Source: a virus. Taken from it: a stretch of 31,716 bases of DNA. How positions within the stretch are numbered: the stretch's first letter is position 1; each line of letters opens with the position of its first letter. The position numbers were made by a program, and so were the translations under genes. Of this stretch, positions 1,472 to 11,400 are shown one piece after another. Location: IMG/VR virus record IMGVR_UViG_3300030102_000979, positions 1 through 31,716 of that record. One strand, 5' to 3'. The notes beneath the pieces were generated by a model, which ran no database searches, was not told where the DNA came from, and saw nothing but the letters and a program-made list of their open reading frames with translations.

Positions 1472-1705
1472 TTACTCCTTTTGTTGTAAGCTCTGCTCGC
1501 TACCGTCTGTCCATCCCTCTGCTCTCATGGCTCTTTCCACATGTTCCAATGAAAAAGGTCGCCCATAGTGGGCTTGAACTGCAGCCCTTACATAAAATAC
1601 ATCACTGTGGGGGATATGTAGCTTTTCTAAATTGTTACTGATTACGGCATCATAGAATGCTTCAATAACATTGTCTGTGTATAGTTTTACGGATTTTTTG
1701 CCCAT
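1472..1705 (-). CDS. Small hypothetical protein, first gene of minus-strand operon
   Basis: The product is 77 residues from the ATG at 1705 (MGKKSVKLYTDNV...). An in-frame TTG two codons upstream (1711) is possible but less likely. No clear Shine-Dalgarno precedes either start. It is mostly helical in appearance (EAFYDAVISNNLEKL, SLEHVERAMRAEGW), with no recognised family. It is the first gene after a strong minus-strand promoter (-10 at 1836-1841), with a leader of roughly 120 nt that contains a small A/T hairpin (1792-1806). The next gene starts 5 nt after its stop. Confidence 0.7.
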   Translation of the reverse strand: MGKKSVKLYTDNVIEAFYDAVISNNLEKLHIPHSDVFYVRAAVQAHYGRPFSLEHVERAMRAEGWTDGSEQSLQQKE

Positions 1706-1835
1706 TGTCAACGAATAAATTAAATAAATGTACGGAGGGGATACTATTACTATTAGTATATCTTAATTTTAGTAAACTGTTTTTTTAAAGAAAACTACTA
1801 TAGTTTAACTATGTCCCAGTTTTTGTTATACCATA

Positions 1836-1874: not shown

Positions 1875-1905
1875 TTGACACTCTTTATATACAATTACCT
1901 ATTGT
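1875..1905 (+). promoter_or_regulatory. Candidate plus-strand early promoter
   Basis: A perfect -35 TTGACA (1875-1880) is followed after 19 bp by TATTGT (4 of 6 matches). The spacing and -10 are suboptimal, so an activator or a phage factor may be needed. The -35 lies only 10 bp from the -35 of the minus promoter, forming the inverted repeat GTCAA-N10-TTGAC (1860-1879). Confidence 0.4.
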
Positions 1906-1970
1906 GGTTAACATCTAATTTTCCTGATCTGTGTATTTCTTCATGCATATATACGCCATACCCCCCACTG

Positions 1971-2035
1971 GCGCATGCCCACACACACCTGCCCTGCGTA
2001 TGTGCCTATCTGTGGCATGGTGTGAGTGTCTGCGC
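1971..2035 (+). other. GC-rich structured segment, possible leader RNA or ncRNA
   Basis: In an otherwise AT-rich region, 1960-2050 is GC-rich with CACACACA and GTGTG runs. It can fold: GCGCA (1971-1975) with TGCGC (2031-2035), ACACACACC (1981-1989) with GGTGTGAGT (2019-2027, one mismatch), and TGCC (1990-1993) with GGCA (2014-2017). The plus strand would be transcribed from the candidate promoter at 1875. The pairing is seen in the sequence; an RNA function is inference. The DNA could instead be a protein-binding or replication site. Confidence 0.4.
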
Positions 2036-2227
2036 TGTGTATCTGCACCATGATGCGAGCATAACCCATGAAATAAGGGATATCAGAAGGTCTAGAAACT
2101 GTTACTACATCAGTTGCACTCTAAAGAGAGTTTCAGAAGGTGGGTTTTTTGAAAATGAGTAGCAAAATGTCAAGCCTATGCATCATTTTTGCAACAGTTC
2201 TGCAATACCATATCCCCTCCAAAATCA

Positions 2228-9463: not shown

Positions 9464-10315
9464 ATGGCTTTAGATTTTACAAATAACGGTTTAAATTTAC
9501 CTGAGTATTTAGATTTTACAACACGTACTGAACCTACACGTATGGCAGGTAAGAAGTACGTTATCAACAACGACACTGACGAGGTGATTGGTATTGTTGG
9601 TAGTAAGTTCAACTCTGTCACACACACAGAGTTTTACGACAGAGTGTGGGACACCATGTCTGAACAGCTAGGTGCAGAAGCAATGGAAGGTGTACAGGTT
9701 AAGTGGAACACTGCACGTAACAATGCATTCGCTATGCTTGATGCTACCATGCCTAGCACTAAGGCATTGATCACAACCGACAAGCAACAGACAGAAATAT
9801 CACAACGAGTGATAGCTTTGCATGGTGTAGATGGTATGTGTTCTAACCAAGTATTCTTTGGTGCTATAGATTTCTTTTGTACAAACGGTATGATCAGAGG
9901 TGAGCATGACAAGGTGCGAAGAAAGAATACTACAAACTTTAGTATGTCTACCTTTATTAAGGAGTTAGAGGACGCTAACAGCGACTTCTATTCACAGGCT
10001 GAACAGCTACAGGAGTGGGCAAGGACACCTCTTGAGTATAACAGTGTAAGAGATATGCTTCACTCTCTCATGGGATCTGAGAAGAAAGGTGATAAGATGC
10101 TCGGCTTGTATGCACAAGAGATACAGACACGAGGACACAATGCCTTTGCACTGTACTCTGCATTCACTAACTATGCATCATATGCAGATGAGCGTAACGG
10201 CTTCAAGCTACGTAACACAGGCAACGATACTAACTCAATCAGCATGTGGGGACGTGAGCAGGAAGTTACCAAGTGGGTATCATCAAAGCAGTTCAAAGAA
10301 CTGGTTGCTGCCTAA
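9464..10315 (+). CDS. DUF932-like phage/plasmid protein
   Basis: 283 residues. The pattern matches the DUF932 (phage/plasmid-like) family: VGSKFNSVTHTEFYDRV, QRVIALHGVDGMCSNQVFFGAIDFFCTNGMIRG, then a helical C-terminal half (MLHSLMGSEKKGDKMLGLY, TNYASYADERNGF). The family is common in phages and plasmids near replication genes, but its biochemical role is not known to me. AAGGAG precedes the ATG. It is the first gene after the promoter at 9404 and is coupled (TAATG) to the recombinase. Confidence 0.8.
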   Translation: MALDFTNNGLNLPEYLDFTTRTEPTRMAGKKYVINNDTDEVIGIVGSKFNSVTHTEFYDRVWDTMSEQLGAEAMEGVQVKWNTARNNAFAMLDATMPSTKALITTDKQQTEISQRVIALHGVDGMCSNQVFFGAIDFFCTNGMIRGEHDKVRRKNTTNFSMSTFIKELEDANSDFYSQAEQLQEWARTPLEYNSVRDMLHSLMGSEKKGDKMLGLYAQEIQTRGHNAFALYSAFTNYASYADERNGFKLRNTGNDTNSISMWGREQEVTKWVSSKQFKELVAA

Positions 10316-11400
10316 TGAAGTTACCTCGTTACGTACAACAGAGGTACACACCGAAGGGGGTGCGAACATTCAGGTTCAATCCCCCTCGTCAACTTATTGA
10401 CACTGGTATTGTATCTCGCAGAGAGTTAGGCAATAATTTTAACGAAGCAAAGAAGATCGCAGACTATCTCAACAAGCTTGTGGATGAACATCGTCAAAGT
10501 AAACTGACAGATTTATCAGTTACCAGATCTACTAAGTTGTCAGAGCTTTGTGACATATATCTTTTATCTAATGATTTCAATGCCTTACGTGAGTCTACTA
10601 AGGCAGATTACATATACTTCATACGAGTATTATGTGACAGTCTTGGTGAAAAGAAGTGGAACACTATATCTAGTAGGTTAGCCAAGCGAACTTATGAGGT
10701 TTGGGTAAAAAGAGGTGTGTCCTTTGCCAACCATGTGTGCAGTGTGGCATCTAGGATCTACAACTATGCAACAGAGATGGAGTATGGCAATCACAATCCT
10801 TTCTCGTCTATTAGACGTAAGTCTACACAGCCTAGACGTGTAGTGTGGGCGAAAGAACAGGTGCGTCAATTTCTTGACTTTGCCTATGACAAGTACGAGT
10901 ACAGAAGTATTGCTCTGATAGTGCATATGGCATACGAATGGTGTCAGAGAATAGGTGACATGAGACTGTTAACATGGGACACAGTTGACATGGACAAAGG
11001 ACAGCTAAACTTAGAGCAATCTAAACGTAGATCAAAGGTGTTCCTACCTATAGGTGACGAACTATACGAGATGCTTCTACAACAGAAGGCTGACTTTGGC
11101 TTTCAACACTACGTAGCACCAAATATAAAGCCTGTACAGGGCAAGTTCAAACCTTACAGCTTGGAAGGTGTATCGAAGATAGGAAGACGTGTCATGAAGC
11201 AATCTGGACTGCCTGACGAGTTACGCTTGATGGATCTAAGACGCACAGGAGTAACAGAAATGATTGACAGTGGAGTCCCGATGGGTCAGCTTATGTCAGT
11301 CACAGGTCATGCCAACGTGCAGTCGGTTAAACCTTACATGAAGCACACATTTGAGAGTGCAAAGAATGCTCTCATGACAAGGAGTAAATATAATGTATAA
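10315..11400 (+). CDS. int: Tyrosine recombinase / integrase with His-to-Met change
   Basis: 361 residues from the ATG at 10315 (TAATG overlap); the open frame upstream lies in the previous gene. An N-terminal arm-binding-like region (about 1-70) precedes a core-binding helical domain (about 75-165) and the catalytic domain (about 175-350). Catalytic residues: Arg212 (WCQRIGD), a Lys at 237 or 241 (QSKRRSK), Arg309 (MDLRR), His332 (TGHANVQ) and Tyr341 (KPYMKH). The usual box-II His of HxxR is Met306. Recombinases with other residues there exist, so activity may be retained. No att site or tRNA was recognised nearby. It may integrate the phage, resolve dimers, or be relic. Confidence 0.92.
   Translation: MKLPRYVQQRYTPKGVRTFRFNPPRQLIDTGIVSRRELGNNFNEAKKIADYLNKLVDEHRQSKLTDLSVTRSTKLSELCDIYLLSNDFNALRESTKADYIYFIRVLCDSLGEKKWNTISSRLAKRTYEVWVKRGVSFANHVCSVASRIYNYATEMEYGNHNPFSSIRRKSTQPRRVVWAKEQVRQFLDFAYDKYEYRSIALIVHMAYEWCQRIGDMRLLTWDTVDMDKGQLNLEQSKRRSKVFLPIGDELYEMLLQQKADFGFQHYVAPNIKPVQGKFKPYSLEGVSKIGRRVMKQSGLPDELRLMDLRRTGVTEMIDSGVPMGQLMSVTGHANVQSVKPYMKHTFESAKNALMTRSKYNV

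Follow-up and report, generated by a model that had tools for sequence, protein, structure and literature searches.

What is the function of a short GC-rich segment in the divergent region of a phage genome? The stretch of DNA analysed here (the window, a 31.7-kb virus record of 31,716 nucleotides) encodes a DNA polymerase A with a weak match to a DnaJ central domain, a tyrosine integrase (10273-11400), a C5 methylase, and proteins matching ribonucleotide reductase and DnaB-like helicase, a gene set that, judged from its sequence matches, is that of HMO-2011-type phages. Early genes run rightward from an ATG at 2391 and late genes run leftward, and the segment (1971-2035) lies within the region where they diverge. 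A sequence-only reading had proposed that it could be a small regulatory RNA, a structured leader controlling early expression, or an origin-type DNA element.

The composition of the segment sets it apart. Its GC content is 0.615 (61.5%), compared with 0.401 for the whole window and 0.358 in the 300-bp flanks, and equally GC-rich 65-mers make up 0.05% of those in the window. Purine/pyrimidine alternation reaches 0.73 (window mean 0.485), a value equalled by 0.04% of 65-mers, and the dinucleotides CA, TG, AC and GT account for 45%, compared with 27%. The description of the segment as GC-rich and CA/TG-alternating is thus borne out, and the view that it contains no credible gene is supported: a 95-codon open reading frame with a TTG start (1875-2162) crosses it, yet in the alignment with other contigs no part of the leader is less conserved than 1971-2035, which is set between near-invariant flanks.

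The long interrupted stem that had been proposed exists as a set of pairs, consisting of an outer pairing of 1971-1975 with 2031-2035 (GCGCA/TGCGC) and an inner pairing of CACACACACC with GGTGTGAGTG that contains one mismatch, but its stability is no better than chance. The minimum free energy of the segment as RNA is -25.3 kcal/mol (z -0.95), a value matched by 28 of 200 shuffled sequences. Folding of a 131-nt context gives a z of -0.44 as RNA and +0.31 as DNA, with the RNA minimum in context built from pairs other than those of the proposed stem, and the equivalent 75 nt in 109 diverged relatives have a mean z of -0.36 ± 0.10. The fold is therefore not unusually stable relative to shuffled sequence. 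No Rfam family matches the window at gathering thresholds; weak matches near 2300-2400 were caused by an A/T-rich inverted repeat and were set aside, as were other weak ones in other leaders.

The alignment with relatives indicates a conserved, unannotated element to which the segment forms the variable 3' flank (Table 1). The surroundings had been correctly called an AT-rich control region, while the boundaries chosen for the segment miss the conserved part just upstream (1903-1979). The order from 5' to 3' starts with GTGGTTAACA and CCTGATCTGTGTATTT (as found in subgroup I), continues with the alternating tract and the GC-rich core, and closes with the TGGCNCNTGCC box and the variable stretch. 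Measured from GTGTA, the box ends at a distance of 44 in 88 of 96 relatives. TTCCTGATCTGTGTATTT is present as a single copy in the window, which likewise contains no second copy of TGTGGTTAACA with up to one mismatch.

Table 1. Coordinates of the element, its flanks and associated features in the window.
Feature	Position	Strand	Basis or remark
Conserved 5' block TGTGGTTAACA of the subgroup I form	1903-1913	+	Alignment
TTCCTGATCTGTGTATTT block, near-invariant in subgroup I relatives	1921-1938	+	68 exact IMG/VR matches
Whole element by sequence model R1	1940-1982	+	Best match in the window, 27.2 bits, E 1.4e-7; next 4.1
Alternating pyrimidine-purine tract CATGCATATATACGC	1942-1956	+	Purine/pyrimidine class invariant at six positions in relatives
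GC-rich core with C6	1956-1968	+	C-run (68) or G-run (27) at the same place in relatives
Box TGGCGCATGCC, consensus TGGCNCNTGCC	1969-1979	+	Spacing to the upstream block constant in 88 of 96 relatives
Hypervariable GC-rich 3' flank, most of the reported segment; terminase may make its initiating cut here	1980-2035	+	
Stem 5' arm CACACACACC	1980-1989	+	Pairs with 2019-2028
Stem 3' arm GGTGTGAGTG	2019-2028	+	GGTG common to the covarying stems of HMO-2011 and roseophages
Putative initiating pac cut	2034-2036	.	Placed, as in phiM6, 54 bp past model position 42
Dyad AACTGTTACTACATCAGTT (form AACTGTTATNNNATCAGTT)	2097-2115	.	Conserved in subgroup I

Within the tract, bases exchange while the purine/pyrimidine class is kept: step 6-7 is TG in 54 of 96 relatives and CA in 36 of 96. 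TG and CA are one and the same step of duplex DNA, seen from opposite strands. Because class rather than base is conserved, CA and TG replace each other, and the core may be a C-run or a G-run, we infer that duplex DNA is the recognised form. The retrieval patterns for the subgroup I form omit the tract, and its conservation is therefore not a search artefact. The earlier remark on purine-pyrimidine alternation was a good lead, the alternating tract next door to the segment being the part conserved in this way. The dyad further downstream mostly lies 171-178 bp from the element in relatives (161 in the window), with hypervariable sequence between them.

Pattern scans retrieved 68 and at least 120 contigs, plus 20 carrying a second form, from which 173 distinct sequences were kept. 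The conserved neighbour of the segment is present in more than 170 distinct viral sequences and in HMO-2011-type phages, while the segment itself varies. BLAST finds the element in HMO-2011, CRP-1, CRP-2, CRP-345 and CRP-603, and inspection of gaps together with the sequence model adds CRP-207, CRP-3, CRP-212, CRP-235, CRP-738 (weak by the model), CRP-9, CRP-13, ctYwJ313 and HTVC103P; in HTVC033P it was recognised by eye only. The model finds no match in HTVC115P, and no similar DNA was found in plasmids. The exact pattern has 14 matches in bacterial genomes of unrelated taxa, which were taken as chance. The tract, core and box are retained in CRP-2, CRP-207 and subgroup III, where the DnaA-like and 13-mer-like blocks are missing. 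In the subgroup III phages CRP-3, CRP-212, CRP-235 and CRP-738, the element occupies gaps of 750-860 bp between two leftward late genes and is therefore no early-gene 5' leader, since its neighbours are co-directional. HTVC033P and HTVC103P carry it in the gap that immediately precedes terS.

This distribution bears on the proposal that the segment is a structured early leader RNA or a small RNA, with the stem at 1971-2035 acting in the rightward transcript. In favour of such an RNA is covariation, which had been suggested as a check and which is seen in GC-rich relatives only. In these, an in-register stem is kept through compensatory changes, as CTAACC/GGTTAG in HMO-2011, CTTACC/GGTAAG in L023, CTTGCC/GGCAAG in L178 and CTGACT/AGTCAG in L113 and L157; compensatory stems in register are also present in L149 (TCAAC/GTTGA) and L027 (CTCACC/GGTGAG). 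The arms in the window fit this arrangement with a shift of about 8 bp. Arms of the same GC-rich relative pair better with each other than with the arms of closely related sequences (p 0.001-0.02). Shifted controls, however, come to p 0.04-0.05, and no signal is seen among AT-rich relatives (p 0.45). The long stems contain 81 G-T and 59 A-C combinations, an excess too weak for this test to distinguish RNA from DNA. With the ordinary folding energy, the lack of an Rfam family and a subgroup (III) that has no rightward gene downstream, so that the element is not a 5' leader in all relatives, an RNA function is distinctly unlikely: the oddity of the segment is real, and the RNA explanation is not supported.

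The proposal of a DNA element proved the better lead, given the conservation of the neighbouring tract at the purine/pyrimidine level, although initiation of packaging fits the data better than a replication origin. In CRP-9 and CRP-13, the replication genes are Cobavirus-like and the genes for morphogenesis and packaging are HMO-2011-like (PMC8528129). Both carry the element, while the cobaviruses CRP-4 and CRP-5 have no match above 5 bits, so the element goes with the packaging module rather than with the replication module. HTVC103P, which pairs HMO-like packaging genes with a different replication type, has a match just upstream of terS (E 0.0012-0.0015). Inheritance with the terminase and packaging genes is accordingly seen, in few cases (CRP-9, CRP-13 and HTVC103P positive; Rhizobium phage RHph_N3_19 without a match despite its close TerL), and inheritance with the replication genes, as expected of an origin, is not. 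Around the element in CRP-9 (L234, 8990-9520) and CRP-13 (L236, 1700-2360) there are also repeated GTTTAATATTAAAC-like dyads, joined in CRP-13 by TTGTGATCACAA dyads.

The element could alternatively be a phage replication origin placed where the two transcription units diverge, with the alternating tract as the unwinding region, TGTGGTTAAC as a DnaA-box-like part and GATCTGTGTATTT as a part like the 13-mers of oriC. A bacterial oriC consists of a DnaA box and AT-rich 13-mers. TGTGGTTAAC is one base off TGTGGATAAC, which we take to be the oriC DnaA-box reference, the element is single copy in the window, and in both CRP-345 and the window it coincides with the lowest point of the cumulative GC skew. 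The skew maximum, however, is located where the operons converge (19-20 kb) and not opposite the element, so the skew can be explained by transcription. The likeness to oriC is superficial, as the DnaA-like and 13-mer-like blocks are not in all members and the element tracks packaging genes. An origin is thus unlikely.

A direct comparison with a predicted packaging start is provided by a soil relative, Sinorhizobium phage phiM6 (MH700630), in whose record the initiating pac cleavage predicted by PhageTerm was set as position 1 (PMC6256558). A calibrated element model, built without phiM6, has its best match in the 68-kb genome at 55-93 on the minus strand (10.4 bits, next 4.8, E 0.067), and a weight matrix allowing one gap scores this site 25.2 (next 9.9). 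In at least one member, the element is thus found beside a published initiating cut, the cut itself being a PhageTerm prediction. The phiM6 site shares with those of the marine phages the HMO-2011-type TerL, portal and capsid, the tract-core-box sequence and the orientation relative to terS/terL, with the predicted cut 54 bp away; it differs in lacking GTGGTTAACA and CCTGATCTGTGTATTT and in its flank, which is dissimilar and has a lower GC content (48%). Homology would place the initiating cut of the window near 2034, where the segment ends, with packaging heading leftward into the late operon.

Taken together, 1940-1982 is probably the pac recognition element of HMO-2011-type phages, and 1971-2035 its box together with the variable stretch within which, or at whose end, the first headful cut would be made. 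The flexible alternating tract, the GC core and the TGGCNCNTGCC box would be recognised by the small terminase subunit together with TerL. Concatemeric DNA would then be cut by TerL about 55 bp to the right, and packaging would move left across the element and on into the late operon (terS, terL, portal, coat). The covarying stem may help to bind or position terminase in some lineages. A more specific suggestion, made tentatively and held to be doubtful, is that the packaging signal is read by duplex shape or flexibility, through the purine/pyrimidine tract, the GC run on either strand and, in part of the family, the stem.

Several observations count against a pac site. Contig ends gather 200-400 bp past the element, on its downstream side, and not at 55 bp, the element lies several kb from terS in some members (∼8 kb in HMO-2011) and not inside terS, and the searches found no match in RHph_N3_19 or, by the model, in HTVC115P. 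The case is further weakened by the phiM6 cut being a software prediction made from reads, by the modest E value of the phiM6 match, and by the faint model match in CRP-738 and the recognition in HTVC033P by eye alone. The clustered ends belong to short contigs (L061, L066, L074, L075, L082 and others) and number 18 downstream (3.9 expected) and 2 upstream; they may reflect an assembly break or scattered terminase cuts.

In P22-type headful packaging, a recognition sequence is likewise accompanied by a nearby cut and packaging towards terL and portal, and the HMO-2011 coat is annotated as P22-like. P22 pac lies within the small terminase gene, whereas the HMO-2011-type element is longer, lies between genes as much as several kb away from terS, and is conserved as purine/pyrimidine classes. 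The cos sites of lambda and HK97 resemble it in lying upstream of terS-terL-portal and in having a GC-rich core between conserved flanks. As a cos site, the 10-14 nt GC core would be the overhang, which would explain why it can be a C-run or a G-run, arbitrary in sequence yet GC-rich at a fixed position, and the gene order (element-terS-terL-portal) fits. Element-bearing genomes nevertheless seem to pass through the core without a break: the HMO-2011 record is circular, the CRP records begin at gp1 and hence include the core, and 157 of 203 contigs with the element extend more than 500 bp beyond the element, which is therefore probably not a fixed genome end. In addition, phiM6 was assigned a pac-type, terminally redundant genome, and the contig ends are found downstream and not at the core. 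A cos site is thus very unlikely. The integrase encoded in the window raises the further thought of an attP integration site, which we consider extremely improbable: CRP-3 integrates at tRNA-Met with a core overlapping the 3' end of the tRNA, the window has no tRNA gene, and the element is seen in HTVC033P, whose subgroup IX reportedly lacks integrase genes.

HMO-2011-type phages rank with the dominant phage groups of the sea, and many recombinant phages share their module for packaging and morphogenesis (PMC8528129, PMC9038755). The literature searched on this group mentions no packaging site or conserved intergenic element, and the packaging start of these phages appears to be previously undescribed. 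A pac site is a known kind of signal; what would be unusual here is its pattern-conserved anatomy. A pac element of known location would open the direction of packaging and the genome ends to testing, and would provide a DNA marker by which to recognise the packaging module in metagenomes. It is also a case of a DNA signal in which the purine/pyrimidine pattern is conserved more strictly than the bases. Shape-reading, if true, would be a mode of terminase recognition so far undescribed, common to one of the most abundant marine phage groups and its recombinants.

The surrounding leader contains several other features. The leaders of relatives hold 147 perfect short dyads 160-420 bp downstream of the element (28.6 in shuffled sequence), whose arms change in step and whose loops are AA or TT. 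These dyads have no bias of G-T over A-C (26 and 25), and being strand-symmetric they are possibly DNA sites rather than RNA hairpins. A 29-bp inverted repeat of A/T runs (2319-2388, 93% complementary) lies just before the first early gene and is missing in L009 and L016. No convincing sigma-70 promoter was found inside the element; the sole strong match is a leftward sigma-70-like promoter (TTGACC-17-TATAAT with TG, 1864-1836 on the minus strand, 11/12), which is kept in near relatives and likely drives the leftward gene block. Beside the element, subgroup I phages encode a 79-residue protein (1472-1711, minus strand in the window) that has no PHROG match; relatives of this protein are also present in CRP-9, CRP-13 and ctYwJ313. 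The protein encoded at 163-894 on the minus strand matches PHROG 3704, annotated as ferredoxin / auxiliary (E 1.7e-29). The early region of the window contains eight copies (0.2 expected) of the near-palindrome CCCGATGTCGGG, at 2229, 2883 (within coding sequence), 3058, 3460, 3721, 5349, 6316 and 9351; its equivalents in relatives have the form CCRAYRTYGG, and it is possibly the operator of a phage regulator.
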